Shown piece by piece: positions 3,345-63,837 of a DNA stretch of 64,000 nt. The stretch is from Isoetes taiwanensis. Its lineage: Eukaryota; Streptophyta; Lycopodiopsida; Isoetales; Isoetaceae. Position 1 is the stretch's first letter, and the number at the start of each line of letters is the position of its first letter. The position numbers and the translations under genes were made by a program. The stretch spans positions 1,682,777-1,746,776 of the forward strand of contig JAJEKV010000036.1 in the NCBI GenBank assembly GCA_021234155.1. Direction: 5' to 3'. The notes beneath the pieces were generated by a model. That model saw nothing but the letters and a program-made list of their open reading frames with translations, did no database searches and had not been told where the DNA came from.

Positions 3345-5074
3345 CTCTGCGTTTCCGCTAAAAAACCTCCGGCATTGCCATGATCCGGCGAAACAAGAAC
3401 TTGGGCGATGGGTTTTTTCTGCAGAAGAATGAGGCAGTGTGGTTTAGCAAGGGTAGAAAAAGACTCCTGCCACTCGTCAGAGGCTGACCAGTTGCATATG
3501 TGTTACACTTGTGTGGGGATAGGGTGTCTGCCGGAAGCGAGACCTGAGAGCGACTATGGAGCCGAATGCTTTCTGAGTGGTGGACCTTCTTTGTGGGCTC
3601 AAATCTGATGTGGGTGGGTCATTCAAGAGCCGGGCTAATCAGTGAGCAGAAAAGATTTATTGAGCATGGCAGATCGGAGTTGTGGGTTTTAAAACCGGAT
3701 TATGGTTTTAGTCTATCGAGATGGCATGGAGAAAACATGCGGCCTTTGAAAATGGCAGGCCTTTGGGATTTATCTGCAAGTGGGGATGATGATTATGATA
3801 AGAAGGAGGAAAAGGAAAAGGGATGCTTGCGCTCTGTGCTGCTGATGCTGGGCTGATGCTTCTCAGAAATGAAGAGGCTGCCTGTCTAAAGCTCTGCTTC
3901 CAAGGGCAGATTTTTTTTTTTCTCAAGAATTGAAAGAGAGATGAGAGAGAAAGACCCTAAAAACTGGACCCTTCAGCCTGATTGATTGGTACAGCCCTCC
4001 TGCTTGCTTGTGTTCCGGTAGGGTACAGCAGCATTGCTTGCATTACTTACTCCGACGGATCTGGCTCTTGGGTAAAAAAACAAAAAAAAAAAGAAGGGTA
4101 AGTGCTCAGCTGCCTCGCAGAACAAAAATGTTTAACCTGTTATCTTCTTTTCTTAATATTTTGGGGCTTTGCGGTCCTGCTTCCATGGCCCAACTTGCAT
4201 ATCTTATATATACTACCTCTGCAGCACCTTCTGCACAACCGATTCATATGGATTTTCCCTTCTGTAACTGTAATTGCAGACACTAATTCTCTTGCTTGCC
4301 GGAGTAAGTAAAAATGGCGAGGCTTTTTACTCGATCAAACCCAGAAACCTTTCTGCTCCGATTTTTTTTAGAGTTTTTTTTCTTAGTGGATTTGTGCAGA
4401 TCGGATTGGCCATACCAATGACAAGTACCTGCTTCTTTCTTTGACTGGTAGGGCTTACGATTGGCCGCTATCTATTCTTCTTCTGTGTTTTCTGTGCAAA
4501 ATAATATTTCTTTGCTTTTAGCATTTTTAGGTTTTGAGTTTTTGGATCCCCATATCACCCAAAACCCTTAAAAAGATAGGTCAAAGGATATGCACCATCT
4601 TTGGCAACCTTTATCCCATATAATCCTTCTCTTTGAATCCAAACATCAATCTCCATTCAATTCAATTCATATCAAACCATATCAAACACCATGCCCGATA
4701 CGATCTTGTTCCCCATGCCTCCGTTTCTTCTCCCCCCTGCATTATTTTAATCGTTCCTCGGATCATTCCCAGCTATTTTTTTAGACAACCCAAGCTCTCC
4801 TGTATCTTGCCATGTTCTTCTTGCCCCTGTGCCCTAACTTCCAAGCAAAGTGAATGAGAATATGAGAAAACTGTAGTATTTACATTGAAATTCTCATTTG
4901 TTATATGTTGGCATGATGCTTCCTCTTAGCTCATCCCATCCCCAGGCAAACATTGCGGCTCAATTATATCCAATTTTATATTTCTGATGGACCTGCAACA
5001 GTTTTCTCAATTATTCGTTCTAAAGCAAGCGCACTTGCAGCGCAAATGGCATGTTTGGATGTTTTATGTTGCAG
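3345..5074. other. 5' flank of the Aux/IAA gene, no gene recognised
   Basis: This should contain the Aux/IAA promoter and 5' UTR, since the gene reads leftwards from 3344. Pyrimidine-rich and poly-A/T tracts occur around 3910 and 4075-4095. Short TGTCTG/TGTCTA strings near 3526 and 3882 resemble the TGTC core of auxin response elements, but such short motifs are expected by chance. The longer open frames here have no recognisable protein features. Confidence 0.4.
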
Positions 5075-14669: not shown

Positions 14670-15521
14670 GTTTTCCCGCCCTTGTTTTTGCCCTTGGACG
14701 GAACAGAGATCCGTCCAGCTATGGCCATGGCAGCTTTTCTATTGGAAGGATTCGTATGGCTAATGGAGGGTGCCTCGCTATGGGGACCCCCCACGCGACG
14801 GAAATTCGTTACGCCATTTTTTGTGCCTTTATTTTCGGCGAAGAGGAAACGTGAGAAACTTTTTAGGGTTTGTAGAAGACTCTTAGGGTTTACACAGGAG
14901 CAGCAACGCCATGGCGGTTGCCCTACGATGGAGATGCCCTAGACCCTAATAGATCCGAAATCTCCTTTCTTGGTACAGGGTTTGGCGCTCAATGGCGACC
15001 TCTGAACAGCTAAGATGGCGACTTCTTGAGGAGGATTCCTTGTATTTGGAGGGAGATTTGGCGCCAACTGCATTGCTGCTGTATTCTACAGACTTGCAAC
15101 CATGGATTGAGGATTAAGAAGCTACGTATCATTCCCATTTGATTTTTAGAAGCTTTGACCATGCATCTTTTACTTATAACCTTTTTTCTTCCATTTTTTG
15201 CAGTTCAAGAATTGCATGCATCTTTAGAAAAGGGCTACTGCATGCACTACGGGATTGATGTGCTGGCTTCATCCACAACCATAGGTTTGTGTTTCCCTCC
15301 AAGCTTTTCTGTTTTAGTAATTCCCTCCATTAATTCCCTCCACTAATTCCCTCCCAAATGTAAAAGCAGTTTCTTTGTCTCCTTATATCACGATCTCAAA
15401 AATCGGATGAGCATCACGCAAGTTAAGTGATCATTCACCCTTGCTTTACTTCTACTTCAATTCTTGTGTTTGTCTCGAATTCTACTATTTCAATTCCTGT
15501 TGTTTGATTGCTCTTGTCATC

Positions 15522-16838
15522 ATGCATCTTCGAGGCAGAAAGATTGATGCACCTCCACCTTCTGATCCAAAGGCTGTTACCAAAGCCAAAAGATCTGCTA
15601 GACCCTTGATCCATACTCCTGTTCCTCCATCCACTCTTGGCAGCAAAAGAATAAGATCAACCAAGAGGGGAGCCTGGACTATAGAGACAATGCAAGAGGC
15701 TTTAGATTCTATAGATGATGGCATGTCCATCAGAAAGGCCTCTTTGCATTATGCCATTCCTGCAACCACGTTAACTCGTTGGGTTTATGGTGAGTGTGAG
15801 GTTAAGGGAGGATCCAAACCCAAGGGCTTCACACTAGAGGAAGAGGAAATCCTTGTAAAATGGGCCTTGCAGATGTGTGACGAAGGAAGGGGAATTTCAC
15901 TTGGGATTATGAGGGAAAAGGCATCAGAAATGTGTGCCAATAGGCAGACTTGTTTTAAGGATGGGATTCCTGGAGACAAATGGTGGAGGAGCTTCAAGAA
16001 AAGGCATCCTGAAGTTACGCTTAGATCCACACAATGCGTGGAGGTCCAACGGGTCAAGGCAATTAATTCCACTAACTTAATTGGCTTCTACACTGGCCTT
16101 AGAAAGGCTTACGATGATTTTAGCTTTGATCCATCTAAGATATGGAATTGTGATGAAACAGGTGTGCAGGCTGGCAGCAGGGCTGGCATGAAAATTCTAG
16201 CAAGGAAAGGGCAAAGAAATGTCACTCAGACCATCCCTAAGAATAGGGAGTGGTTAACTGTTTTGTGTTGTGTAAATGCAGCAGGCCAAAGCATTCCTAA
16301 TCTTTATGTCTTCAAGGGAAAAAAATTGAGAGACAGGGACTTGCTTGCTGGATGTGAGCCAAGGGCTGCCATGTGCTATCAAAAAAAGGCATGGATTACC
16401 CATGAGCTATTTGATGCATGGCTTGAACACTTCAAAACTAATGTGCCAGGGGGTATTAGTCCAGAAAATCCTCACCTACTGATTTGTGATGGCCACGGAT
16501 CACATGTAAATCTGAAAGTGATCCAACATGCTAAGGAAATGGGTTTGCATATCTATCAATTGCCAGCCCACACTTCTCATAGGCTCCAGCCACTTGATGT
16601 GTCATGTTTTGGCCCCATGAAAGGAGCCTTCAAGAGTCTAAGATCTAAATACATGCGAGACCATGAGCTTCTTGAGCCTTCCAAAGAAGACATGGCAGCA
16701 TTAGTCTCAGCATCACTTAGACAATCATTGACCGTTCATAACATCAAAGCAGGCTTTGCTAAGACAGGTATATGGCCATGGAAAATGTTGGCTGTGCAGC
16801 CTGATCCCATTGCTTTGAAAGTCGATTGTAAGAGATAG
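15522..16838 (+). CDS. pogo/Tigger-like DDE transposase
   Basis: Cut-and-paste transposase of the Tc1/mariner superfamily, pogo branch. I take the ATG at 15522 (MHLRGRKIDAPPPSD), giving 438 residues. An earlier in-frame ATG at 15441 would add a cysteine- and phenylalanine-rich stretch that looks untranslated. Domains in order: a psq-type helix-turn-helix around residues 50-90 (GAWTIETMQEALDSIDDGMS, then SIRKASLHYAIPATTL); a CENPB-type second HTH; and a DDE_1 catalytic core with Asp211 in IWNCDETG, Asp323 in LLICDGHGSH and Asp359 in LQPLDVSCFG. The spacing D-x111-D-x35-D fits the pogo DD35D pattern. The transposase part is complete. It runs directly into a damaged second part in another frame. 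Terminal inverted repeats and TA duplications were not located. Confidence 0.9.
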   Translation: MHLRGRKIDAPPPSDPKAVTKAKRSARPLIHTPVPPSTLGSKRIRSTKRGAWTIETMQEALDSIDDGMSIRKASLHYAIPATTLTRWVYGECEVKGGSKPKGFTLEEEEILVKWALQMCDEGRGISLGIMREKASEMCANRQTCFKDGIPGDKWWRSFKKRHPEVTLRSTQCVEVQRVKAINSTNLIGFYTGLRKAYDDFSFDPSKIWNCDETGVQAGSRAGMKILARKGQRNVTQTIPKNREWLTVLCCVNAAGQSIPNLYVFKGKKLRDRDLLAGCEPRAAMCYQKKAWITHELFDAWLEHFKTNVPGGISPENPHLLICDGHGSHVNLKVIQHAKEMGLHIYQLPAHTSHRLQPLDVSCFGPMKGAFKSLRSKYMRDHELLEPSKEDMAALVSASLRQSLTVHNIKAGFAKTGIWPWKMLAVQPDPIALKVDCKR

Positions 16839-45640: not shown

Positions 45641-45863
45641 ATTACTGCAGTACAACTATTACTGCTAGGATTCTTAAACAATTGATTCTTATCTCCAAAT
45701 GTTACAGTAATGACCATTAGGCTTAAATTACGGCATTATTCCCTTGAAATTATAGCACGTAACTGTGCTCCGGGTTTTGCGGAGCGGCGCCGCTTTCTCT
45801 GTTCCAGCATGCCAGGTTTTTTCTTGCACAGTGCAAGCTATGGAGTGCACTTCCGTCGGATTT

Positions 45864-45926
45864 GCCGGAACTGAGGCACAGATCTCCGGAACTGAGGCAT
45901 AGATGCCGGAACTGAGGCACAGATCT
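45864..45926. repeat. Tandem repeat of about 21 bp, three copies
   Basis: The unit is GCCGGAACTGAGGCACAGAT with slight variation (GGCATAGAT in the middle copy). Confidence 0.9.
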
Positions 45927-46650
45927 CAGCCTCAAAATCATCGTCTCAACTGCTGAAACCTGCTTCACCAAGGCTAGATAAAATCTTTGATCCAGACTAC
46001 ATCTCCAAATCAAAGAATCAAAGAATCAAATCTTCACCAAAGCGATTTTGAGACGATTAGGAGCAAAGAAAGGTGATTACGCCAGCCTTGAGCAATATGG
46101 GCCTCTGGTTGCCATAGCCGAAGCATAACTGGTCGCCATAGCCTTAAGCAGTCAGCTCAGCCCTGTTCTCTGTCGGATCCGCTTTCAAATAGGTCTTCTT
46201 CTTCTGCCAGAACAGAACTGACTCTTATCCGGCCAAGATACCCTTTGTATTCCCATATCCTGGCTTTGCATTTGGTTCAAGATTTCCTTTCGGCTCTATA
46301 TTCTTGGTAATCTGCCACTTATTAGTCAGCCCGAAGCTTGACAGGAATGCCGCTTTTATCCAAATTTCATTCCTGATAGCTTCAGATGCGATCTGCAAAA
46401 GAAAAAAAATGGACGAGCTTTACCTATGGCAGATGGATTGGCCAAGGTCCTTCATGCATTTTTGCTTGGAGCTCTACTATAATAGCATCAAAGAAGATTT
46501 TATGTCAAATCATATCAAGCGTCCATTATGAACAAATCAGAATCTTTGCAGACTCCGGATTTGTAGAAAGCCATCGAATCCCCTGCTTCGTGAACACAAT
46601 ATTCAACTAGTTTTCTTCTTCTAATCCACTCCTTAAGCATCTATTCTGTT

Positions 46651-47890: not shown

Positions 47891-49139
47891 TTTAATAGCA
47901 CAACCATTGGTAATTTAAATGGTAACAACCATTGATAATGTTATTCATAAACTTGCCATTGTTTTTTGAATTTTTTTTTTTTCCAAACCGGAAAAACAAC
48001 ATCTCCTATAACGCACTAAAATAAAAAATTTCAATTTTTAGCAGGCTTTCTTAACTCCCCCTTATAACACTTCCTACAATTCTAGCCTATCCACGTAGTG
48101 TGCCACATCAGCTAAAATTAATATTGTCCATCGATCTTAGAATTTTCTCATCAACAGGAAATTAGAGGATTGCTTCTAACGAAGGGCGGCTCAGAAATCC
48201 AGCCTCCGAATGGATGTTTTGAGGCTAATGCTCAAACTATCCAATCTATCCATGGAAAAGGCAGATAGTATACCAAAATAAACAGATAATACATAGCAGA
48301 TTTCTTCTCGCAGCTCCACCGGCTGAATGAATCGATGTCTCTGTATTTCCTGCTTGGGTCTTCAAAATTTGAATTTTATCCCTAGTTCATGGTTAATTCA
48401 TTTTGCAAGTGTTTAAGAGCAAGTTGAAATTTTTAGAAGATGGCTTTCTATAAGTTAATATTCTTGTTTTTATTTTCCCTCCCTTTCATTTGTTCATGTT
48501 TTGCAATATATTTCCACAGACCAAGCAAGGTGGGAAGAGATTTTTGGTTCAAACAAAGAATTTCTTATTACATGATGATGCTAGTAGTAGAAGCTTCTTT
48601 GCCTTGGAGTTTTTCCAACGCTGCCGTTGGCTCTGGTATGGCCGACGTGTTCATCTATCTTTTCCAATCTAAGTTATTCCCTTTTATCACTGCTTATTCT
48701 GTCATATAAAGAAGGTTTCTTTCTGGAAGCAACTATCTATGGCGATTTATTTTGATGCAAATATGTTGGAAAGCCTTCCAGTTCTATGCTATACTGTAGG
48801 ACTTGAACCATCTTGCCGTTTAAAAATGTATTGATCCACAACATATGGTTGCAGATACTTTTGAATTTGCACGAAGCTGCTGGTTATCATGCTCTTGTCT
48901 GAATGCCACAAGAAGCTTAACTAATGGTATCAGAAAACCATCTGATGAGCAATCAATAGAATATGCATGTGAGCCATAGTTACGAAACACGGCCACGGGA
49001 AACGCAACGGCTCCCCAAATTTTAGAAAACGGAAACGGCAACGGAACACGGAAACGAATAACACGGGAATATTCTTTAAAATACTTAAAGTTTTTAAAAT
49101 ATATAAAAACGAAATGGAAATTTCAGCAAAATTCAAAAA
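47891..49139. other. Intergenic stretch with one small ORF
   Basis: At 48440-48709 (plus) an 89-codon ORF starts MAFYKLIFLFLFSLPFICSC, which would be a good signal peptide, but it has no further recognisable feature and no conserved cysteine pattern. Around 48985-49075 there are repeated ACGGAAACGG/ACGAAACACGG words typical of transposon ends. Otherwise nothing is supported. Confidence 0.3.
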
Positions 49140-49164
49140 AAGTCGTATTTAATTAAAGTGGGAC
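49140..49164 (+). repeat. 25-bp inverted repeat, left copy
   Basis: AAGTCGTATTTAATTAAAGT plus GGGAC. The exact reverse complement occurs at 61306-61330. Outside both copies the sequence is A/T-rich. Inside, the similarity continues only loosely as GGGACTC words. Confidence 0.8.
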
Positions 49165-49804
49165 TCATTCCATTCCCATTTTTTTTCGGAACCCGGTTAA
49201 TTTACATAAAAAGTAGCACCCCGACCCGAAAACTATCCTTAATTCGAATTTTTGAATAAAACTCAAATCCGAAATTTGTCTTTAGCTTTTCCCGTGTTCA
49301 TGAAGTCGAGAACAAAAACAATGCAATCAAAACAAAGGAAATTCATTAAAGTTTGAAACCAAAGATGTAGTTGAAAAAGAATTTTTATTAATAAATTGAA
49401 TGATACAATGTATTTTACATCGGACGCTTGAGACCATGGCGGTCTTGTTTGCCACTACCACATCATCTTGGTAGGTGGTCCACCTTAGGGGATTAACTTG
49501 TGGCGCTTCTTCATGCCGCCCTCAGTAAGCCTTGGGGGCAACCTCAAGAGTGTGGAATGCCTCACGGGAGGTGCCTCTCGAGCTACCGCCGACCTGTCCC
49601 ACCCGACTTCTCCACTCGCCTCCCGACCTTTCATCGAATATGCTCCTTCCCCAACCTCCGTGGATGTTATGCAATGCTTGCAATATGCCTTGAGCTTCCT
49701 GGACTTTCTCTTTGTTCTTCGCCTGTTCTTTATTCCCAGGGTGTAGCGAGCAACCTCTGAATTCGCGAGCAACCTTGTCCCAAAGGCCGGGCAAGAGTGT
49801 AGCG

Positions 49805-49935
49805 TGACCGGGATCTGTGCCAGAACGGTATTTCTTCCGCCTTGAGCGGGATCCGTGCCGCCTGGAGCGGTCTCTGTGATGCCTGAGCGGGATCTGTGCT
49901 GGTGTCGGATCTGTGCCTGAACCACCTGGAGCAAG
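49805..49935. repeat. Degenerate tandem repeat around GGATCTGTGCC
   Basis: GAGCGGGATCTGTGC-like units occur four to five times with 25-40 bp spacing in a GC-rich patch. Overlapping open frames on both strands are repeat-derived. The stretch 49165-49800 shows no recognisable gene. Confidence 0.55.
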
Positions 49936-50411
49936 GAGAGTATGATTAACAATTACGGTGTCATTAGTCAAAACGTAGAAAAGAACGTTGAAATCAAATT
50001 ACAACGGAGAACATTCATTCCATACAACTGCATCCAATGACGTGGGAAGTAGTGTCTTTCTCGACTCGCGAGTCGAGAAAGGCCCATAAAAGTCAAAGTA
50101 CAACCATTCTCATTAGAATATGGTTGCATCCAATCACACACGGAAGCATACAAATGCTTTTGTCAACGAGACAACTAGCATGCCTTTCTCGACTCGCGAG
50201 TCGAGAAAGTCCCAGGAAACCCAATGTACAAGCATTATCATAATAGATTGTACAAGCATTTCATCAACACGACAAGCATGCCTTTCTCGACTCGTGAGTC
50301 GAGAAAGGCATCGAAAACTCAATATACAAGTATATTCATTACAAAATGGTCAATACATGTGTTCACGTTCGATTACAATATTCACACAATTTGACTATCT
50401 GAAAGCAGGGG

Positions 50412-53400
50412 TCACTCTTCTTGTTCACCAAAGTATTTGTCGTCCATAGCTTTCATGATCGGCTTGCTCTCTGGATCGGGTTCCGTGAGGCTCGGATAGT
50501 TCGTAAGCACATCGGCGACAAGAATGGCAAAGAGGATTCCGCCAAGACAGATGCCAGTCCGGAAGGACAACCACCTATCTCATCTCATATTCTTCAGGTC
50601 GATATGGCTTAGCAATGATTGTATTTTTGGCGGCGTTATGATAGCACTTGTAGGAGGAGTCGCCTATGATCGTGTTGTGTTTGCCAAAGTCCCGAATTGC
50701 TCATAAACACCGCCCAAAATTTTCACCATTATAGGCTTCCCCTTTGTGATGGCCGGATCGAGGTCCTTCACATGCTCGACCCTTTCGTTTCCCCAAACGA
50801 ACTTGAACTTCAAAACTGAAATGCCGAGAACACCAAGAACATTGACAATATTTTTCTTTGCCATACAAGACCATATGCCCACTTCGAATCCCGTGCGGGC
50901 ACCGGCCAATAATTTCCTTAGCTCGGGCCTGGATACACTATTTTATGCTCTGCTTTCACCGGGATCTGCGAGGTGTTAATCTCGGGGACGTCTTTGTCGT
51001 GGTATACCGCAGCTAATACTCCATTGACGTCAAATATTACAAGCTTGGTGGGACCACCGGATCCCGCTTGGAGTTTGGCTCGACCATATTTCCGGTTCAT
51101 CGGGATCCAAATGCGGGATCATTAACTTTTCGTGTTCTTTAAAGGCCGGGAGCGGTGTCTTGCTCGGATTTTCATTCTCATTCTCCTCGCGACGTGAACC
51201 GTTGGAATCCATTGACAATGATCCGGACTCGTTGAGCTCGAATTCCAAAATGATGACATCCGCCGAAAGAAGCGAAGTTTTTTTCGACTCGCGAAATCGA
51301 GAATGACAAGGAAAGGTATTGAAAGGAACGAGTTTTCTCGACTTCGCGAGTCGAGAAACACCGCTAGAGCAAAATAAACTCACCTCAATCTCGTGGTTTT
51401 CAATAATGTTTTCGCAGCATTCTGTCCAATCCTTCGACATCCTCGTCTCACAGTTTTGTCTCCCTCGTCCCTCGCCGCCTTTCTTTGCTTCCATTTGTCT
51501 TCCTCCCCTTGAAATGCTCATGAAGCGGATCCAAGTATGATTGAATGGTTTCAACCATGTCCTTATTTCCAACCACGGATATAGGTTTCATTCCAAACAA
51601 AGATAGCCCCCGAGAGAACAGCCATTCATGTACCACTTTCGCGATACAATTTGATCTTCCTCGACCAAAGCCGGTTATGAAGTACTTGATAACTCTTGGC
51701 CGGATAGGAATTCTATGTATAGGACCGGTCGCACCATCCTTGCTGACCTTGTCCATCGATGGAACATCCTCCATAAACCTGCCCCCCTTCCAGGGTTCCA
51801 TCTGCTCTTGAGAGATCATGAACTTGTCGAGATAATGATGCTCGCTAGACCACCACTTATCCGTGTCGATCAGATCTTGAAATCAAAACCAAAACTATGT
51901 TGGCAAAGCTTGGTGCCTTGTGCGGCAAGCCAAGTCCGCGCACTCATGATCAAGTTCAGATATGGAGTGCATGATCTTGTTGGTGAAGTTAATATCACCG
52001 CCCATTGGGAGACAAAGCAGCTTGTTTGATTGCCCTAAGCATGCAAAAGACAAGGAAACCGAAAGTATCCGTGTCGGTCATGTCCGTTTTACGCCTTGTA
52101 CCAATTGCTCTATGTCGCCTTTGTCATAAAAAAGGGTGGGGTCTTCGATCATATTGATGGCAAATAGTGCCACGGGTCCAGGTGCCAGTTCCAGACCACC
52201 AAATCCCTTGTGTCCCAAAGTAACCAGAAATGGGGGGGAGCTATCGTCTGCCTTAAATGGGACCACCCCGAATCAAGCTTCCTTTTAATTGCCATAGCAC
52301 GCTCGAGGGAAAGGAAGGGTTTTGACGTTACGCTTCAGCTTGGTGTTGATGTAGGGTTGACATAGACGGTTCAATTCCTTCATGTCTTCCTCATCAAGGG
52401 CAGCCTTTTTCCTTGTAATAATCAAAATCATGGTATTCATTAGATGCAACGCTTTAACTCCGTGATGCCTTCTTCTAACGCATCTTTGCCGCTTTAGGAT
52501 CGTGGCATAATCCTTTGCGTCCCCGCAATTTAGAACTCCCGGTCTTCCTCGCCAGGATTGTTCCCTCCAAGATTTTGCCTTGTAGGTCAAGCGTTTTTTT
52601 GTCCGTGAGGCCCCCAGATCCTCTTCATGAACTGCTTGTCAAACAACTTGGGGTCGGGCCTGCTTGGAAATTCTCCATTGCTGTCCTTCAGCTTGCCTCT
52701 TGTCCATTGAGCCCATATTTCAGTCCATTTCTCCCAGACCGCCTCAGTGCTAAGAATGAGGTCGTATTGGTCTGAGAGAGACTCCATGCCTTTCCTTGGT
52801 GTTCTCTTCTTCTTCTCCTCTTCTTCCTCTCCCTCGTCATCTTCCTGTCCCTCCAGCAGAACATATCTGCATAGTTTCTCAAAGGTCTTCCACTTATCCG
52901 GGGAGCCCCCGTTTCCTTTAGGGCCGAGGACAACCCAATGTTTTCCAATTGTTGCCTAGCGTGTATGATCTGTCGATATAAGGGCTGCATTCGGACAATG
53001 TACCAATGTCGAGCATGAAAGTATCTACAAACACCCGTGAATAAACAAGTAAAATGTAGCCCTCGGGTTTTCTCGACTTCGCTGAAATCGAGTCCCTTTG
53101 AATGTCTAATTTTCTTTTACTTCTCTGGGTTTTCTCGACTTCATGAAGTCGAGAAAGCTCGCATCCTTTGATTTTCAGCATTACCGCCTTTCGACTCGCG
53201 AAATGAAAACCCCGCTGATAATCGGCAAATGTTAGATGGCGGGGCTTTCTCGACTTCGAAATGAAAGTCCCATTCAATGTCTAATTTTCTTTTTCAAGTT
53301 AGGGTTTTCTCGACTGCGCGAGTCGAGAAAGCTCCATATCCTTTGATTTTCAGGTATTTACTCGCTTTCGACCGCGAGTCGAAAACCCCAAGTGATAATC

Positions 53401-54690
53401 GGCAAAATGTTAGATGGTAGGCTTTCTCGACTCGCGAGTCGAGAATGGAAAGATTCAGAGAGTTATTTACCTTACGTAGCTGGCACTCGCTGCTATTGTG
53501 TTCTGGCAGTGGCTAATGCTGGCCAGTTCGGTTGCTGGCGTCTCCGCCGAAAGAACTCTGCACTCTCGCTTGGCATATCTATCCTTGATCCTTTGCGGCA
53601 CCTCCTTCTCCGTCTCGCAATACTTGAGCCGCCCCTAACCAATCGTCCGTCCTACAACCCGTAACCTGGGCGTCTTTTCCCTTCAGATCTTCCTCGGACT
53701 TCCAAATTGAACAACTCACTGCCGACCGCTAAAAAAGGTATGACATCCGCAGGCATTGGATCTGCAGCGGGATGTCGCACCATCAGGTTCGTAATCTCCA
53801 AAGATGTGTCTTGGATTAAATTCCCGTGGTTGAACAAGACGACATCTCCGTGCAAACCTTCAAGTCTAATGTCCAAAGAGGCGGCTTGTGTGATATTCCC
53901 AACGCGGATAATACTGAGCTAGACGCCCATTTTCTCGTGCCCCTCTCGGTGAAAATCCTGATCTGATCATCCGGATCGAGGTTTGGGGAGTCGACCATAT
54001 CTTCGTCTCCTTCGCATCCTACTCCTCCCGTGTGGTGTCATCATCCCCATCTTTGTTTTTGGTGGACTTTTTGTGTATGAACCACAACATTCCCCACCTG
54101 CAGAGTGTTGTAGAGTCTTCAAAGACAAAGAGAAGTGAAGCTCCCGTATTGAACAGTTTTTTCCCCGACTCTGAAAATCTCCATACCAAGCTCCCTCGGA
54201 TGTTAGGGTTCCTACCTCCTTCATCCCTTCCGGATCCTTCCACCCAAGGTTCTCGACAATTTAAAGGCGCTGCCTTTTTTCTAAGTGCCCTTAGCCTTGC
54301 TCATGGAAGAGTGAGAATAATTTGAAACTCCCAATTTTTGGTGCGATAGAACTTACTCTTCCGGCGCGCCCCTCGACATGTAGTGTTAAATGCTTCGAAT
54401 CCGGGCGAGACGGAGAGCACAACACCGATTTTCTTGTACTTGTCTCCTGAGCTCTTCTTGTCCCTTTGGTGTAGAAACAGATCTTTCTCCTTCCCACTTG
54501 TCGATACCTCGACATACCACCAAGAATCTGCCCATTGTTTCAAGAAGCTCGTCTCCAAATCCCTCGATGATCGAAGAATGGAGTTCGCCGCTGATCACCA
54601 AAGAGTCCGAGGTGAATGCCGCAAGAAGAACGGATGGATCGGTTAAGGTATTCCGACAAAAGAAAAACCTCGAGCTCACCCGGGGTGTTT
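50412..54690 (-). pseudogene. Large decayed minus-strand locus ending in an FCP1/NIF-like phosphatase domain
   Basis: Many minus-strand open pieces in shifting frames look protein-like and probably are exons of one gene. In order from the 5' side they include WYVEVSTSGKEKDLFLHQRD (about 54500), KLFNTGASLLFVFEDSTTLC (54150), VVLFNHGNLIQDTSLEITNL (53830), DPKLFDKQFMKRIWGPHG (52630), RHHGVKALHLMNTMILIITR (52470) and VIKYFITGFGRGRSNCIAKV (51690). A donor GAG-GTGAGT lies at 51382/51381. The C-terminal 230 residues (51100-50412) give LVIFDVNGVLAAVYHD, RPELRKLLAGARTGFEVGIW, KHNTIIGDSSYKCYHNAAKN and a C-terminus GEQEE. This is the order of a NIF/FCP1-like HAD phosphatase, with the second Asp of DxDG replaced by Asn (DVNG). 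At least three single-base frameshifts occur in this last part. The upstream domains are not recognised. It could be a captured host gene in a transposon. Confidence 0.55.
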
Positions 54691-55659
54691 GTCTTCTTCT
54701 TCTTCTTTGCCGGGCATTGGCGAAGCATCCTCCGGGCTAAGCGCTTCTTGGATCTGAGTCATTTCTATATGCCCTCTCATCCTCTTCTGACGACTCAGAA
54801 ATTAAGTTTCCTCCGCTGGCGTTGTGAGTTTTAGGACTGCATGTAAAAAAAGATCGGGCGTGTTCTTTAATTTGAAGTTAAGGACATGCAATCATTTATG
54901 AAAAAAAAGCTAAGAAGGGTACAAAGACGGTCGGCTTTAGCCCGCCCAAACACTATTTCAAATTGAATCACATCAAGGGACTAAGTGAGTAGAGCGTAGT
55001 TTATCTTCCCCCACTAGCATTGGGGAACTCGAGGTCGGAGGGGATCATCGACTGTGAGCGACTTCCGGAATGGCGCCGCGACGCGGTAAGCTGCTAACAG
55101 CGCCTTGCATATGTGTGTTTTTTTCCCGACCGCGTCCCCATTGCAAGCGCTTGAATTGATCGATGAGCACGAGCTAAGGTAGGAAGCGGAGGGAGCTGCA
55201 TTAACCGAACTCTACATCTGCGGCGCCATGGAAAGGGGATACGCGAGAATCGCAGTGATACGAAAGTAATAGATGCGAATACACTCTTGAAGAGACCGGC
55301 GTAAGAAGCAAAGACTCGGTGAGGCTGCGGGACCCGTGATACAAAGGCCCAAGGAATTATCACAAGTGAAGAGGTGAGTTTCGAGATGCCTATGTTATTT
55401 CGGGCTTTGTAGAACATGCCGTATGTGTTTAAATAATGGAACTATTTGATAAGCTCGACGGAGTTCAGTGTTTCCTTGTCCAAATTTCTCAGCTTCGAGA
55501 TGATTTACTCTCTAGGTTGAGAGATGCTCGGCAAGGAAACATTGGATCGAGGGGTAAAGAACAGTTCCGTTTAGGTCCGTTTTTCCATGGATCGCTTACT
55601 TGGAATGTTGTACATAGATCGCTAGGACTAAGGCCCGTGAGATGCGGTTCAAATGCATC
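54691..55659. other. GC-rich stretch without recognised gene
   Basis: CpG-rich sequence (for example around 55070-55260). Open frames occur on both strands, none with recognisable features. It may hold the 5' end or promoter of the minus-strand locus. Confidence 0.35.
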
Positions 55660-56745
55660 CTCTTGTAGTTAGTCTGAGGGGCCTCCACCTGTCCCAACCA
55701 CTCCTCTTCGCAATATTCGAGGAAGATGGTTCAAGGAGAGTGGCTCAGCATGTGCTAGAGGCACTTGGGACTAAAAAAAGGAGAATAGAAAGTGCAAGAT
55801 TTGTAGAGAATGCAAGCCTTGGCTTCCTCTCGTGGTTTCCCTGTGGTTAGTTGTAGAGGCCTCCACCCAGTCCGAGCCCCTCCCTTCTCGCACTATTCGG
55901 CCTAAGATGGTTCAAGGAGAGTGACTCGACCGGGTCGAGGCCACCGCTACCGCATACGTAAGAATTGGTCGGTATGGGATTCTCGACTTGCGAAGTCGAG
56001 AATGCTTGGCTTCGTTTACATTTTCACCGCAAGTCGAGAATGCCTTGGCCATCCGTAACTCCTAAGTTAGTACACATGGAGTGCCGGTTGGGTAAGGCAT
56101 TCCCACTTCATGAGCCGAGAATGCATACAAAGAAGCTCAGGAATGCATGCATTCTCGCGACCACACACGAGAATTGGTTGCTAAGAGCTGGCCTCGCAGA
56201 CAAGAAAAACACTTCCCTTCGCAATGTCCGAGGAAGATAGAAGGAGAGTGTTTAAGACCGTCTCGCAAGCCCCGCTCTAGAGTGCACTTGAGCTCGCGCT
56301 TTCTAACTCACGAGTCGAGAAAGCAGCCAAAAGAACTGGGTTAGTCGCCGAGGCCTCCACCCAATCGAGCCCCATCCCCTTCGCAATATTCTACCAAGAT
56401 GGTTCAAGGAGACTGGGTCTTTGATTGGGTAGAGGCCACCACCACTCCACACACGAGAATTGGGTTGCTAAGAGTTGGCCTGCGGACCAAAACCACTTCC
56501 CTTCGCAATGTCCTAGGAAGATAGAAGGAGAGTGGTTGAGGCGCTCCACCAGCCAGCTCGAAAGTGCACTAGAGCTGCGTTTTCCTCCACGAAGTCGAAA
56601 AGCGGCCAGCACCTCAGCTGGTTAGTGGCCGAGGCCTCCACCCGCCGCGGAGCCAGTCCTCTTCGCAATATTCGGCGAGCATGGTTCGAAGGAGAGTGGC
56701 TCGGGCTGGGTGGAGGCACCATTTGCACAAAGAGCCATTGGCGGG
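55660..56745. repeat. Tandem array of alternating A and B units
   Basis: Type A cores (CTTCGCAATATTCG, then AAGATGGTTCAAGGAGAGTGG) lie at about 55708, 55893, 56379 and 56661. Type B cores (CTTCGCAATGTCC, then GGAAGATAGAAGGAGAGTG) lie at about 56216 and 56503. A units are preceded by GAGGCCTCCACCC. B units are preceded by CACACACGAGAATTGG and a TTGCTAAGAG phrase, and followed by AAAGTGCACT. The order is A-A-B-A-B-A. The palindromes at 56299 and 56580 follow the two B units at the same place, so the palindrome is part of the higher-order repeat here. Confidence 0.85.
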
Positions 56746-57959
56746 GTATCACATTCTCGACTCACGAGTCGAGAAAGGCCGCAGCGAGGTTCTAAAGAAT
56801 GTGAAGACATTGGGTAGGCTGTGCAATCCGAATCGGCGAAGTCGAGAATCCCTCAACACAATGTCCCCGTCCAGTGTACACTCCCTCTTCTGCGCCAAGA
56901 AGTCGAAGTTCTCGACTCGGCGAGTCGAAGAAGGCCTGTACTTCCTTGACGCTGGCAAGTCGGGTATTCTCAACTCGCCACTCCCTTCCGCATGTCTCCT
57001 GCAATGGATTTGCCGTGAGTTAGAAATGGAGATTCCGCGGAAGCAATTCCTATTCAATTCTTCTTGGGAGAAAGACATTCCTAGTTATTTTCTCATTAAT
57101 GCTCGCAATATCTTACTTCCTAACACCCGCCTCGATGATTTCTCTCTCGGTTGCTTGCTACTATAACCACTATTCTCACTTGTGCATGTACAATGTATTC
57201 AATTCAACCACAAGCAAGAAAAAGATAACAAAAACGTAAAACAATACAAAGATTATTAAGATTAATGAGAAAAACAGAGAAAAAGTGGAGAACAAAGACA
57301 GAGAAAAGTGGAGAACAAAGATGTAAAAAATGAGATTAAAAAAAGGGTATGATATTACAAAAACATACCCGGAAGATTTGTTTGGATGAGGAGGAGGCTT
57401 CCCCACTTGATTCCATGTGGGTATAGTCGTTGACAAAGCGTGAATAAGGATTTGTCGGGCAAAATTGTATCGGGGATTAATAAGAGCCTCTAACAAATGT
57501 AATATAAGAAAAAATGCACTAAAAGACTTACGTAAAACTAAAAAGCAAAGACAAAAAGGGCCTCACTTTCTTCTCGAATGCAGAACGCCCGCTGAACAAT
57601 GAACCAAGGCGAGAACTTTGGGCGCCGAAAGCGCCCTGATCACCGACCAAGCCGCTGGCATAATAAGATGGCGCTGGAATCGCTTCGGTTTGATCGATCG
57701 CCGACGGTGAAAAGCGGGCCCCTAAGGAAACAGGAGCTCAAGACCGATCGAGAAAACAGGGGAGGAAGAATGGTCGGGGAGAGGAAGAGGGTGCAAGCAA
57801 TTAATTGCTGCACCCTCGAACCCTCGTAAAAGTGCAATAATATACTTACATCACGCGTGGGCCATGCCCTCCATGACGTGGCAAAGGCGGGATTACGTGA
57901 CGTAGCCCGGTTTCACCTCTCCAAGAGGCCCACGTGGCCATGCCAAGATATGAAAGGGT
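56746..57959. other. Stretch with a 161-codon plus-strand frame but no recognised gene
   Basis: The frame 56681-57166 (plus) spans three palindromes or half-palindromes and then continues QWICRELEMEIPRKQFLFNS, which is not known to me. From 57180 to 57540 the DNA is A/T-rich with GAGAAAAAGTGGAGAACAAAGA repeated twice (about 57270-57320). GC-rich sequence returns at 57560-57940. Confidence 0.3.
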
Positions 57960-58195
57960 TAGTTATATGTTTATATATGTTGTCTTATGTATTTAATAAG
58001 GTTTCAATGGTTGAATAGTATCAATGGTATATATGGTTACAATGTTCACATATGCTTTAGAATGAGTGTGGTTGTATGCTTTAATATGGTTATATGATTT
58101 TAGTTAATATGGTTGTATGATTTAATATGGTTATATTTAATATGTTTGTATGGTTTTATATGGTTCATATGGTCATATTTGTGGTGTTTGGGGCT
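57960..58195. repeat. TATGGTT-rich low-complexity repeat
   Basis: ATATGGTTATAT, TATGGTTGTATG and similar words recur through the whole stretch without fixed period. It separates the GC-rich array region from the DUF7869-like gene. Confidence 0.7.
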
Positions 58196-58458
58196 ATATG
58201 GTTTTAATGTGAGCTTTTTCATTCAGGGGAGCATGTGAGATGAGTAAAATGGAGCCGTGGAAGTCCAAAGGAGGCCATTGCCCTAGGCTCCAATGGAGGA
58301 GGATGGGTTGCCTTTTGTTGCACCCTTGCAACCAGATGGTATTTGCAGAGGGCATAATAACCTGCAGCTTGATCCATTTGATAGTGTGAATGATGAGAGG
58401 CCGGGAGATGAACATCTTGGAGTTGGCATTGTGAAGCTTCTTATCGGTTGATACTATC

Positions 58459-61134
58459 ATGTCCCGTGGAAGCTCTAGTGATTGCATTGTGTGCTTTCGG
58501 GGTCAGGCTGAGTCCCAAGCTCAGTTGAGATGGCCAATTAGATTTATTACACACAAGAATGGTGATACTCTAGAATGCCCCATCAACTACACACCCCAAG
58601 GCCCACCCAAGGCCATGTGGAAGATTTGGTGGTCGATGAGCATCCTTTGATCACAAGGAAGAGACGCTTATGTCTTTCATAAAAAGGCACCAAAGGTGCC
58701 CAAGAGGCCTAGAAGTGACAAATATTTAGAAAGGATGGAAAATATGGCACCAACCAAAGAAAACCTCGAGGCAATTAGGGGACAAGAGTGTTGCAACCTA
58801 GATTGCACAAAGCATTACAATGTGGATGACCTCGTCTTGCAGATAAGGTCCCAATACATTGGACAGCTTCAAAAGATAGGATTAATTTCATTTACTCCTT
58901 GTGTAGGAATTCCAAATATGATGAAAACACGGATCTACCGCTATATCAATTGAGGGGAATGAAGGTATGTATGAGAGCATTGAGATGGATTCTTGGGGTG
59001 AGCAAGTCTTCATTTTACGAATCTTTGAGCAAAGGTTAGAAAAGGGCACACTTTGTTCCAACATGGTAATGCACTCACTTTGAAACCTAGAGCAAATACT
59101 CTAAAGGCCATTGCAGTCTTCGAGAGCTTTGTGAGATACATGTCTCAATCTATGCCCCACAAGTCGAAGGTGAACGAGCGCGAGTGGTGCAAAGAGTGTT
59201 GCCACAACACTATATCCAAAAGGAGTGCCTTAAGGAGGTCAACTCCATCCTAGAAACTACTGGAGGTAGGCCTCTTTCTCAATCACATTTCAGCAAGTTA
59301 TGGAGCACTCACTTCTCGGACGTGAGTGTCCTACAACACATGCCATTCTCAAAGTGCAACACTTGCATTCAACTCAAGGATACACTTGCATCAACTGCAA
59401 TAGAGAAAGAAAGAATGGCAATTAGGGAGCAATTTGCAGATCACCAAAGAGACCAAATATCATGTAGACAGCTTTGTATTGGCAAAGTGGAGAACATTTT
59501 CTCGAGATGCAAATTTACAAATTTTTGTGTATAATTCATGATAAGATGGACCAACACAAGACTTTCTTGCCAAAGCTAGATCCTTTACCCAAGCGTTGTC
59601 AAAACGCTTTTCAGATGAAAGTAAGTCTGGCGGGTGTATTAACACATGGTCATGGAACTGAACATATGGTCATTTTGTGCTTGATCTATGGAGAGATGAT
59701 CCAAACTTCCATGTGAGCTCTATTTTCAAGTGCTTGAGAACACTAGAGAAAGGATCGATAGAAGGGAGGAGGTATTCCCCTTCAAAGACCCATTTTTGAG
59801 GCTTTGATGGATGATCAACCGCTTTGTTACCAAAGGCGATAAAAAAGCTCACATCCAAGGTGCCTAGTGAATCAAGGAGGACTTGGGATGATTTCCCTTA
59901 CTAGAGAAATCACTTTGCGAGGAGCTATGTGTTCTGTTGGACAACCGTTGGAAAGAAAACAAGAATAGATGGATGTTTGGGGCAATGTCATACTTGACAG
60001 CAGTGGGAGTATTCAAAGTTGTGAAAGTGGGATTCATGATGGTTGGGCATACGCATGATGATATTGATGGATTCTTTGGAACTTTCTCCACCAAGCTCAA
60101 GAGAGAAAACGTGACCACTCTCCCTGAACTAATGGATGTGTTTGAGAGCTGCATTGACCCCAACCCAATGGCTTTCTTGATGGATGAGGTTGCGATTGGA
60201 AATCATTTGTAGAAGGATACTTGCTAGATGGCAAGGACCGGTTAATGAGGACACACAAAGCCACTTCAATTCAAGTTTTGGGTTAGGGATGGAATACCAA
60301 TCATGCAATATAAGTGGAGACCAGGTGACAAGTTGTGGATGCCCTGTACAAGGTATCGAAGTTGTGGCAAAGGGGCTGTCTTTGGTGAAGTTCTCATTCC
60401 TAAAGGGCAGCCAAAACCACTACCTCCCTTCAAGACAGTCAAAGACTCTAGCCAACCGGTGAAGGGCATCAAGGATTACATAACGACCGATGATGTTCAA
60501 ATGGAAAGCACACCTCCACTCTTAAGAAAAATCAAATGGACTCCCTAATCAAGTCTTGGGAGAAAGTTGTAACATGCTTAGAAACCCAAACAGCCATGTG
60601 GGAGGGAGCTAAGAGACGGGTTCTTGCCGAGTCAAGATGGGAGGGTTCTCAAGGTGCAAGCACGTCTAAGAATGCTCACTTGGGTCCCAAGTGGTTTTGT
60701 GGGAAGTAAGGCCTCAAAGCCGAAGTGGTTTGATCTTCCCGAGTGGGATCCCTTTGAGGACATCAAGGAAGGATACTTTGTGCTAGTAAGGCCTCGATGA
60801 TGAGGACTGTCCAATATGGTTAGGGGTGGCACTCTCCGATGTGACCACCACTATGCCCGATGGAGAGGAGTTAGATCCCGGATTCCAAATTCAATATTGG
60901 GAGCCCATTGGGAGGCACAAGAAGGGCAACTTGAAGGAGCAATACACCTCGATCAGGGAGAAGAAGTGGAGGCCAAATTATGCTGACCCTCAAAGGAGGG
61001 AATTGGTGGAGTGTGTGGTATGGTCATATCCAAGTTCTCACATTGCAAAAGACAACACACACAAGATCCCAAGAAAGGAGATGGACAAGGCCATGAGCAA
61101 CCTCCATGCTATATCATTGTATGAGGGTGCATAA
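58459..61134 (+). pseudogene. DUF7869-like transposon protein, broken into several frames
   Basis: Plus-strand pieces in order: DCIVCFRGQAESQAQLRWPI (58480); RGQECCNLDCTKHYNVDDLV (58770), a cysteine motif; ALRWILGVSKSSFYESLSKG (58985), resembling the VCKKFFL-x-LGIS helix of this family; HMPFSKCNTCIQLKDTLAST (59340), a CxxC zinc motif; VKVGFMMVGHTHDDIDGFFG (60020-60078), the diagnostic HTHxDID signature; and FQIQYWEPIGRHKKGN with a C-terminal tail to 61134. This order is that of DUF7869-containing proteins, which I associate with transposable elements and an RNase H-like core (from memory). At least five stops or frameshifts separate the pieces. The first stop at 58650 and the long 3' gap at 60550-60820 may include introns. 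Confidence 0.6.
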
Positions 61135-61305
61135 TATTGAGAAGTTTGAAAACTTTCTCAACTAGTGGTTTGTAAAATTTATGAGGAAAACAAGTAACCC
61201 AATTCTATGTGTGTCATGTGTAATTCTATTCAAGCAATCAATTCAGAAATTTCTTTTATGGTGTGTGAGTCCCATTTTCAGTCCGAGTCCCAAAATTCAA
61301 GATTT

Positions 61306-61330
61306 GTCCCACTTTAATTAAATACGACTT
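61306..61330 (-). repeat. 25-bp inverted repeat, right copy
   Basis: Reverse complement of 49140-49164 without mismatch. It lies 172 bp after the end of the DUF7869-like gene and 140 bp before the end of the hAT gene. Additional GTCCGAGTCCC and AGTCCC words occur just to its left. Confidence 0.8.
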
Positions 61331-61470
61331 AAAAAATATAGATGCATATATATTGAGATTAAGAAACGATTACATCCGATGATAATAGTAAAATGTAGTC
61401 ATATTGAAAAACGAAATTCAAATATACTTGCTACTATATGCCGAAATTTAAATACAACAAACCAAAACCA

Positions 61471-63666
61471 TCAAAGTGCACCATAATCGTCACCGTGTGA
61501 AGCTGAAATAGACGGAGGTACAAATTCTTCGTAGGATGGGATTAAGTATGCATCGCTACCATCTAGAAGTGGCTCACCTTCAATGTCATAATCCGCCAAT
61601 TGAACAAATTCTTCATCATCTTCCATGTCTTCCTCATCGTTCACATTCTCCACTAATTCATGAAGTGGAATGCTCTCTTTCTTCGCAAAACCAATGTAAA
61701 CTTCTTTCTGAATAGTCCTGTGGCTTTGCAAGAGTTTCAGATTAGCACTTACAAATACAAGATCGGATGTTCTCGAAGGTAACAATCTAACTCTTCTCTT
61801 ACTTGCCACATGCCCAAACACACTAAAAAGGCGCTCAACCGGAGATGAACTAGCCCCTTGGCTAAGTACTCTTATAGCAAGCCTTTGTAATTCTTTTGTG
61901 TCGGACCCATAATCCTCCCACCAAAGAGCAGAACCGATAAGATACTTATCAACTTGAGAATCATGTGTACCAAATCGACCCCTCTTATTGCGAAAGTGAT
62001 GGAGTTGATCCCTAATTGCTCTTCTCTCTTCATGTGTAGAAACCATTTTCTCAAGAACCATGTCCCAATCACGCCCTACATCTCTATCAGTTTCTTGAGA
62101 CCCCACCTGAAATTCTGGATCTAATACATAAGCTATTGATTGAAGGCGCGAATGATATTTATTCCACCTTCGTGTGCAAAGCTCTTTGATTCCTTTGAAT
62201 TTTATGTCATCCTTTTCAATCGTGCCAATATGCTCCACCATCCTAACCATACCCTCGTACACTTTCCCTATGCATGGAGTCATGCCATCAACAAGCCTCA
62301 TCATCAATACAATTGGCTCAACAACTTTCAAAAGGTGTTCCACCTGTTTCCAAAAACCATCATCCATAACAATATTGTAAGAACATATACCTGCTTGAGT
62401 ACTCGCAAATTTGGAGCTTTGATAGTCACCACAAACGAGCAAGGCCTTCAGTGGCCATCTTAATTCTTGCATTCTTTCAAGCATAATGAAGTTGTAGCCA
62501 AACCTTGTCTCGTAGTATTTCAAGAGCACCTTGCCATTGTGATTCTCACTAGTTAGCTTTTGAAAAACATTGCGCAATAGAGCGTGCCCATTAACAAAGG
62601 TGACAATAGATTTCCCTTGACTAATCACATTTGCATTCTCAGCAATACTACCAATATCCTTCAACAAATTATTCAAGCAATGAGCCATGCAAGGTGTGAA
62701 GAAAATATGTGGATACTCCTTCTCTACGTTGGCTCCCGCATTTCTATTTGCATTCTCCCCATCAGACACAATTTGAACCACATTTTCAGGACCAACAAAG
62801 TCAATGCTCTCTTTCCACACTCTTAGAAGATTTGCTCCACTCTTTCCTTCTTTTCCAAGATCATGAGACATTAGAAAGTATGCCTTACCTCTACAATAGG
62901 CCATCGCACCATGAATATGCCGCCCTCTCCTATCCGTCCAACCGTCAAAAATCAAGGATACTCCCCATTTCTTCCATTCCAAGCGAATGTCCCCAAGAAG
63001 GCCTTCCAAACCTTCCTTCTCTCGAATTAAATTCTTTGTGCGGAGCTCATCATAGGTTGGAGGCTCGTAGTTGGGTCCATAGCTTGCAATTTTGTTTATC
63101 ATGACCTTGAAGAAAGGTGAACGCGCTACATTAAATGCAATATGATCATGGTAAAACCACCTGGAAATAGCTCGATCCACCTCTTCTTTCTTCTTGGGAT
63201 CTAAGATTCTCTTGATGTCCTGTTGTTTCTTCGGCTTTGGTGGAAAAAAGGAACGAACGGCACTAGTACGGGCACCACTACAATCATCCATGGGCGGGGG
63301 GCTACCATAATCTCCATGTTCTTCAGGACCAATGCCAACGCCAGCTGCTGCTATGGCTGATTCCTTTCTATACTGCCTTGCACTAGAGATTTCATCTAAT
63401 TGCTTTGCAAGATTTATAAGTTGTTGCCTCTTCTCATCCATAATCCCCATGCAAACAATAATCTCATGCCCGGGCTCCCCAGTCAAATGGCCACGAGGTC
63501 TATCAACGGCAGAAGTTCTACTAGTGGAGCAATACTTATATGCCCATTGCTTGGAAGACCCCGATTTCCCCTTCCCCAATACATTCACTTCATCCCACCA
63601 ATCCGAAGGAGAAGGCCCTGACCGTTTTTTCCTCCTTAGATGCAACTCTCCTCCACCTTCTTCCAT
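61471..63666 (-). CDS. hAT-superfamily transposase, uninterrupted, 731 residues
   Basis: Single intronless frame starting MEEGGGELHLRRKKRSGPSP. Residues about 20-75 resemble a BED finger (SDWWDEV, KQWAYKYC, then H and C), but the first cysteine of the usual CxxC reads Tyr (AYKYC). A DUF659-type region follows, with Asp241 in SLIFDGWTDRRGRH, Asp302 in VQIVSDGENANRN and the conserved TPCMAHCLNNLLKDIG. The C-terminal hAT dimerisation region has ALWWEDYG, Glu611 in ASSSPVERLFSVFG and SDLVFVSANLKLL. D241, D302 and E611 are at the expected catalytic positions by motif. An acidic tail follows. No stop or frameshift is present, in contrast to every other long element gene here except the pogo transposase. 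Terminal repeats were not located; the right end may lie beyond the window. Confidence 0.92.
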   Translation of the reverse strand: MEEGGGELHLRRKKRSGPSPSDWWDEVNVLGKGKSGSSKQWAYKYCSTSRTSAVDRPRGHLTGEPGHEIIVCMGIMDEKRQQLINLAKQLDEISSARQYRKESAIAAAGVGIGPEEHGDYGSPPPMDDCSGARTSAVRSFFPPKPKKQQDIKRILDPKKKEEVDRAISRWFYHDHIAFNVARSPFFKVMINKIASYGPNYEPPTYDELRTKNLIREKEGLEGLLGDIRLEWKKWGVSLIFDGWTDRRGRHIHGAMAYCRGKAYFLMSHDLGKEGKSGANLLRVWKESIDFVGPENVVQIVSDGENANRNAGANVEKEYPHIFFTPCMAHCLNNLLKDIGSIAENANVISQGKSIVTFVNGHALLRNVFQKLTSENHNGKVLLKYYETRFGYNFIMLERMQELRWPLKALLVCGDYQSSKFASTQAGICSYNIVMDDGFWKQVEHLLKVVEPIVLMMRLVDGMTPCIGKVYEGMVRMVEHIGTIEKDDIKFKGIKELCTRRWNKYHSRLQSIAYVLDPEFQVGSQETDRDVGRDWDMVLEKMVSTHEERRAIRDQLHHFRNKRGRFGTHDSQVDKYLIGSALWWEDYGSDTKELQRLAIRVLSQGASSSPVERLFSVFGHVASKRRVRLLPSRTSDLVFVSANLKLLQSHRTIQKEVYIGFAKKESIPLHELVENVNDEEDMEDDEEFVQLADYDIEGEPLLDGSDAYLIPSYEEFVPPSISASHGDDYGAL

Positions 63667-63837
63667 AATAATTGAGCTCCTAAGGGCAACCTTGTATCAT
63701 AAACGCAATACTAATCATTATATAGTTCAACATAGATGTAGCATAGAATGTATGGAATTGCTATGGTAAGGATATATAATAATATGATAGGTAATGAAAT
63801 GAAATGGAAATGGAACACAAAGGTTATAGAAATGTTA

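Follow-up and report, generated by a model that had tools for sequence, protein, structure and literature searches.

Clustered palindromes of Isoetes taiwanensis are parts, and probable cis elements, of a high-copy DNA transposon family with DUF7869 and NIF-phosphatase genes

Bacterial REP palindromes are short, imperfect and dispersed, and they occur in clusters. We analysed a cluster of palindromes of 24–26 bp in the lycopod Isoetes taiwanensis, within a 64-kb stretch of DNA (hereafter the window; assembly GCA_021234155.1, contig JAJEKV010000036.1, positions 1,682,777 to 1,746,776), which the original prediction had described as a dispersed, REP-like element with a covarying centre. Here we show that, in every locus read, the palindromes belong to a single high-copy family of DNA transposons, probably as its cis elements; the family has 25-bp terminal inverted repeats (TIRs), a 4-bp target duplication and genes for a DUF7869 protein and a NIF phosphatase.

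Apart from REP palindromes, the closest described systems are transposons. In Arabidopsis, the VANC21 protein binds introns, intergenic DNA and terminal non-coding DNA of the Mutator-like element VANDAL21 and removes silencing, and its motif accumulates through tandem repeats that differ between copies (PMC5735166, PMC10398659). In Spm, transposition needs TNPA, which binds repeated subterminal sites, and non-autonomous derivatives must keep these cis sites; the repeats of soybean Tgmt can form palindromes, 2 on the left and 12 on the right, at distances of up to 159 and 732 bp from the ends (PMC2613891). Sola elements (Sola2 group) have TIRs, a 4-bp target duplication and a DDD transposase and, in plants, are reported in a moss (PMC10741241, PMC3627910).

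The palindromes are internal to one DNA transposon family

The palindrome arm TTTCTCGACT, allowing at most one mismatch, matched the window 33 times compared with 3.8 expected (100 shuffles, maximum 10). Twenty-six of these matches fell within 49304–56917 and the remaining seven were scattered at chance level; as originally proposed, the palindrome is found nowhere else in the window, where only half-arms occur. Near-perfect self-complementary copies with arms of 8–16 bases numbered ten (50056–56928), and 16 copies had at most four arm mismatches (49289–56931). This agrees with the initial count of around fifteen in 7 kb, one copy (49289) lying just outside the range first given, and the variant centres quoted at that time were found among these copies. 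A genome search of the kind then suggested, covering 1.658 Gb in 1,110 contigs and requiring exact 10-base arms separated by 4–10 bases, returned 4,619 copies, 2,686 of them the perfect 24-mer with a CGCG centre, whereas the reversed-pattern control returned none; the variant TTTCTCGCCT..AGGCGAGAAA occurred only 6 times. The cluster is confirmed as real, and its palindrome as abundant in the genome. A search of the open-licence literature found no printed description of the 20-base palindrome core or of the term ‘DUF7869’, and searches for RNA families and tRNA genes gave no match.

To place the palindromes in context, we took the first places of the genome listing in contig order, sorted them by eye into 25 clusters and retrieved 20 of these as loci. 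Each of the five left out (one each on C26, C33 and C22, two on C35) consisted of one listed site, which biases the sample somewhat towards clusters. A 25-bp sequence, AAGTCGTATTTAATTAAAGTGGGAC, was present with up to five substitutions in 18 of the 20 palindrome loci; L013 and L014 were without it but matched interior parts of these elements. Hence, all 20 loci read belong to one family. Two end types were distinguished, the left consisting of AAGTCGTATTTAATTAAAGTGGGAC followed by TCATTCCATTCCC and the right of AAGTCGTATTTAATTAAAGTGGGAC followed by AAATCTCGAATTTTGGGACTCGG or close variants. At L008:5768–6193, two left-type ends stand head to head about 72 bp apart, which suggests side-by-side insertion of two elements or a rearranged pair.

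Both TIRs were present in seven copies (the window element, C907, L005, L006, L007, L015 and L024), although some were imperfect (the right ends of L007 and C907). A perfect 4-bp duplication flanked five of these seven, i.e. AAAA in the window, AAAG in C907, CTGT in L005, AATG in L015 and GTTT in L024; the AAAA of the window lies in an A run, and the other four are unambiguous. The duplication was imperfect in L006 (3/4 bases) and there was none in L007. Copy C907, which comprises L025 plus L026 (11,767 bp), sits inside a LINE reverse-transcriptase frame, and excising the element together with one AAAG yields an uninterrupted frame of 345 aa. Inverted repeats, and a target duplication with a clean empty site, are what characterise TIR cut-and-paste transposons. 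Therefore, the TIRs, the 4-bp duplications and the restored LINE frame together demonstrate that the palindromes are internal to a DNA transposon, and the cluster in the window is part of a single 12.2-kb element (Table 1). This element aligns at length with L009, L010, L011, L020 and L022, and by protein with the near-complete C907, which we took as the anatomical guide because the window copy is decayed. Five short elements of 3.8–4.6 kb (L005, L006, L007, L015 and L024) share these ends and palindromes, but neither gene has a match within them.

In C907, gene 1 is on the minus strand and has several exons, the last of which encodes a NIF/FCP1-like phosphatase (PF03031, E 2.9e-10). Gene 2, on the plus strand, is an 830-aa open frame that continues past one stop and contains DUF7869 (PF25273, E 8.4e-44). 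In the window, DUF7869 was recognised directly in gene 2 (PF25273 at 59892–60209, E 1.8e-29); the gene 1 fragments by themselves gave no significant Pfam match, and the NIF/FCP1-like assignment was carried over from C907 by tblastn. Both gene names in the original prediction were therefore right. DUF7869 has at least 150 matches in the genome (150 scored among 8,199 first-look candidates). Candidate aspartates near residues 460, 594 and 633 of the DUF7869 protein, picked by eye, are spaced like those of a DDD transposase, making it a probable transposase on this reading. No relative of the protein was found in viral contigs, and searches of solved structures gave nothing useful. In the first long exon of gene 1 (L025:5074–6264, minus strand), VVDGQHSVRAAQ by eye resembles a DGQHR/ParB-like motif, for which neither Pfam nor solved structures gave support; the exon could be a DNA-handling part of the putative gene 1 protein.

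Three further observations concern these genes and the element. The ratio of observed to expected CpG in the C907 DUF7869 gene (L026:2613–5570) was 0.18, i.e. strongly depleted, and was about 0.6–1.0 in the gene 1 exons and non-coding parts of C907 with palindrome sites masked. At L024:997–1419, beyond the limits of the short element there, is a NIF-like match (31% over 144 aa), perhaps a host gene or a further copy. The left part of the window element has a second short tandem repeat of about 21 bp (..GGATCTGTGCC.., 49797–49920), similar to one in C907 (L025 1696–1769); it also occurs, apparently inverted, at 45863–45927, 3.2 kb outside the element.

Symmetry and placement of the palindromes

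The original prediction took paired changes in the centre as a sign that the symmetry itself is maintained. To assess this, a strict set of 151 oriented sites with at most three arm mismatches was drawn from 19 elements or parts. All 15 doubly changed mirror pairs in the arms were complementary (shuffle mean 5.3; 0/5000 shuffles reached 15; slid controls 0–5). Nine were C:G to T:A changes at position 3, five were A:T to C:G at position 7 and one was at position 8. The position-7 change is a paired transversion at the right-end site, which reads C..G in L005, L006, L007, L015 and L017 compared with A..T in L024. A double transversion is not obtainable by CpG decay. At perfect reference sites (142 site pairs), identity was 0.897 in the arms and 0.818 in the flanks, the arm value being inflated because perfect sites were chosen.

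The centre behaved differently. Among four-base centres of the strict set, 57 of 98 were CGCG; of the 41 that differed, only 4 were self-complementary, as were 1 of 26 five-base centres and 3 of 13 six-base centres other than TCGCGA. Genome-wide, centres with a one-sided, CpG-type change (CACG/CGTG 673, TGCG/CGCA 194) far outnumbered the paired form CATG (90), which is the paired form this count covers, TGCA being left out. CATG is in twofold excess over the approximately 42 expected under independence, but differences in copy age could give such an excess. The TCATGA centre that had been cited for covariation is two CpG transitions away from TCGCGA (CTTCATGAAG from CTTCGCGAAG). We therefore reject a covarying centre, since decay there is mostly one-sided. 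Maintained symmetry holds up for the arms and fails for the centre, i.e. arm symmetry is kept better than centre symmetry.

Within the elements, the palindromes occupy non-coding DNA. Of the 20 sites in C907, one lies 148 bp from the left end; gene 1 has two in its 3′ flank, seven in intron 1 and ten upstream. None touches coding sequence, taken as 51% of the element (P 6e-7). Likewise, none of the 16 sites in the window element touches coding sequence (taken as 55% of the element; P 2e-6). These P values assume that sites are independent, an assumption that tandem copies violate. Exon limits, too, are approximations, judged by eye from open frames, homology and splice-like sites. All five short elements carry a palindrome array 0.65–1.3 kb from the left end and one palindrome 537–694 bp from the right end (5/5), and two of them showed a further site close to the left end.

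Table 1. Features of the transposon in the window
Feature	Position	Strand	Remarks
Target-site duplication AAAA, left	49136..49139		partner 61331-61334; weak alone, within A run
Whole DNA transposon, decayed copy, left-type end first	49140..61330	+	12,191 bp; TIRs at both ends, 4-bp duplication
Left terminal inverted repeat AAGTCGTATTTAATTAAAGTGGGAC, 25 bp	49140..49164	+	
Decayed palindrome, ~150 bp inside left end	49289..49312		counterparts 148-166 bp from left end in L006, L024, C907
Three palindromes, gene 1 3′ flank	50056..50307		50056-50081, 50184-50209, 50282-50307
Gene 1, frameshifted; last exon NIF/FCP1-like phosphatase	50415..54760	-	tblastn with C907 exons; exon limits approximate, partly by eye
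Two palindromes, probable gene 1 intron	51280..51358		
Five scored palindromes and decayed ones, gene 1 intron 1, over 175-bp tandem repeat	53069..53446		53070, 53132, 53307, 53365, 53424
Five scored palindromes and decayed halves, intergenic, upstream of gene 1	55979..56931		55980, 56021, 56300, 56754, 56909
Gene 2 (frameshifted), encoding the DUF7869 protein, a probable DDD transposase	58126..61121	+	tblastn with C907 frame
Right terminal inverted repeat	61306..61330	-	

Two transposase frames of other types are present in the window. A pogo-like frame of 475 aa (DDE_1, HTH_Tnp_Tc5 and HTH_psq) lies at 15411–16835 on the plus strand, and a hAT frame of 741 aa (DUF659 and a dimerisation domain) at 61474–63696 on the minus strand, with 144 bp separating its C-terminal end from the right end of the element.

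Binding sites, passive repeats or hairpins

On balance, and with modest confidence, we think it probable that the palindromes are cis motifs, i.e. putative dimer-binding sites for a protein encoded by the element. On this view, a homodimer encoded by the element, with the gene 1 product or the transposase as the candidate, would bind each palindrome as double-stranded DNA, and by occupying many clustered sites it would mark the non-coding DNA of its own element. By analogy with TNPA in Spm, such marking might serve end assembly for transposition together with repression of transcription; alternatively, it might hold off silencing of the element, the role of VANC in VANDAL. The five gene-less short elements retain the palindromes, as would be expected of cis sites served in trans. 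With sites masked, observed/expected CpG over whole loci fell from 0.81 within 100 bp of the sites to 0.66 at 100–300 bp and 0.52 beyond 1000 bp. This trend is a difference between element and flank, and a hypomethylated halo was rejected.

Several results weigh against binding sites. No consistent halo of CpG retention surrounds the sites inside elements, and the anti-silencing role is conjecture for this reason. Fourteen of the 15 arm co-changes fall in two substitution classes and are inherited, so the independent events are few. In a looser set (277 sites, at most five mismatches), 45 doubly changed pairs were complementary and 29 were not (shuffle mean 23); we relied on the strict count because the looser set includes chance matches. 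At the right-end site of L012, only one arm carries the position-7 change, and several palindrome sites decay freely. For pairs that were not used for choosing sites, the arms were conserved only modestly beyond the flanks (0.818 versus 0.751; 20 of 32 sites). The palindrome at 4312 of C907 lies inside an open frame (4122–4409), and the exon start was assumed to lie below it. In addition, arm symmetry could arise from template-switch correction inside palindromes, and the greater change at the inner than at the outer centre bases, described below, could reflect amplification of a CACG subfamily.

The best-surviving alternative, which we regard as possible but rather unlikely, is that the palindromes are passive by-products of duplication inside the transposon, their symmetry being kept by template switching during replication (palindrome correction) with no bound protein. 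The small number of independent paired changes, the non-complementary double changes of the looser set and the many decayed sites all fit this explanation, and so do the arrays, which are tandem in places: units of 69 bp × 5.4 in L006 and 49 bp × 2.7 in L012 carry palindromes. Not every block contains a clear tandem array, since Tandem Repeats Finder reported no palindrome array in L025 1000–7001, only a 21-bp repeat. To compare flanks, 18 of the 20 sites in C907 and 14 of the 16 in the window were grouped in blocks. Within blocks, 38 of 61 flank pairs (C907) and 10 of 20 (window) exceeded a 1% null, as duplication predicts, whereas between blocks only 1 of 92 and 4 of 71 did. Therefore, the palindrome is the unit common to the blocks and has been multiplied by local duplication. 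Recurrence of the same palindrome in blocks with largely unrelated flanks speaks against a passive origin, as do its avoidance of coding sequence and its presence near the right end in all five short elements.

We consider it improbable that the palindromes act as RNA hairpins, i.e. as stem-loops in the introns or untranslated regions of transcripts, for example as small-RNA precursors or splicing regulators. The self-complementary arms are able to form a stem and many copies lie in the introns and flanks of gene 1, but others lie in intergenic DNA and in gene-less elements. Changes in the arms were balanced between the strands (38 C>T, 35 G>A), and those that G–U pairing would tolerate on the gene 1 strand were not enriched (43 A/C versus 53 G/T mismatches on the element plus strand). 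In a hairpin of this palindrome, all four centre bases would be loop. Next to otherwise exact arms, CpG-type changes at the two central bases were 3.5 times those at the adjacent C/G (673 versus 194), and the local strict set showed a weaker difference in the same direction (12 inner versus 7 outer changes). The inner and outer bases are parts of the same CpGs, and the greater change at the inner ones argues for a double-stranded site in which two half-sites flank a centre that is not contacted, as would suit a dimeric protein.

Very improbable is a REP- or MITE-like mini-element that inserts or is copied on its own: thousands of copies recur in largely unrelated contexts, but all 20 loci read fall in one transposon family with no independent dispersal outside it, and elsewhere in the window there are only chance half-arms, so that the dispersed REP-like element of the original prediction is not supported.

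Relation to described transposons

The clusters resemble those of bacterial REP palindromes in being dispersed; the present palindromes, by contrast, are internal parts of a transposon. Membership of CACTA (En/Spm) and of VANDAL/Mutator-like elements was excluded because of the ends, the 4-bp duplication and the absence of matching transposase domains. The ends start AAGTCG, and the duplication is 4 bp rather than the 2–3 bp of CACTA or the 7–12 bp of VANDAL/Mutator-like elements. The CACTA end CACTACAAGAAA had no match at 49140 or 61330, and a scan of the window for such ends gave 109 weak matches (2–3 mismatches) compared with 82 expected, a number reached in 1 of 100 shuffles, with none at the element ends. 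The gene pieces scanned gave no Pfam match to a tnp2-type transposase and no MULE match.

Among plant TIR superfamilies, the element fits Sola best and is probably Sola-like, judged by structure from published descriptions. The likeness consists of the 4-bp duplication, the size range and the TIRs (PMC10741241, PMC3627910). The NIF-phosphatase gene and the palindrome arrays are features of the present element that go unmentioned for Sola in the available parts of these sources. Tentatively, and as a possibility only, we propose that a plant superfamily outside Mutator and CACTA, probably Sola-like, has independently evolved self-recognition, in which its own protein would recognise a palindromic code in its non-coding DNA and so single out the element and its gene-less derivatives for expression or transposition; this protein is perhaps the NIF phosphatase, and RNA polymerase II could then be its target. 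If so, self-marking of non-coding DNA by repeated motifs arose in no fewer than three kinds of plant transposon, in the present case through a palindromic code and alongside a partner gene that bears a phosphatase, and transposon self-recognition would become testable by convergence. The family is abundant and therefore matters for annotation, as predicted genes made from such repeats are transposon.

With VANDAL21, the element shares a short motif that is found in the non-coding parts of one family and has been built up in local tandem repeats. However, VANDAL21 is Mutator-like, in contrast to the present element with its 4-bp duplication, and the VANC21 motif is YAGTATTAY; the word ‘palindrome’ is absent from the main text of the paper on that motif. 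With the CACTA subterminal repeats, it shares many palindrome-capable copies that are sites, or proposed sites, for an element-encoded DNA-binding protein (PMC2613891). Apart from its ends, its 4-bp rather than 3-bp duplication and the lack of a tnp2 match, it differs from them in that the Tgmt repeats are subterminal, whereas its palindromes also fill introns and intergenic DNA (PMC2613891). Thus, in placement the palindromes resemble the VANC sites more closely, with introns and intergenic DNA filled, and in their palindromic form they resemble the CACTA repeats more closely.

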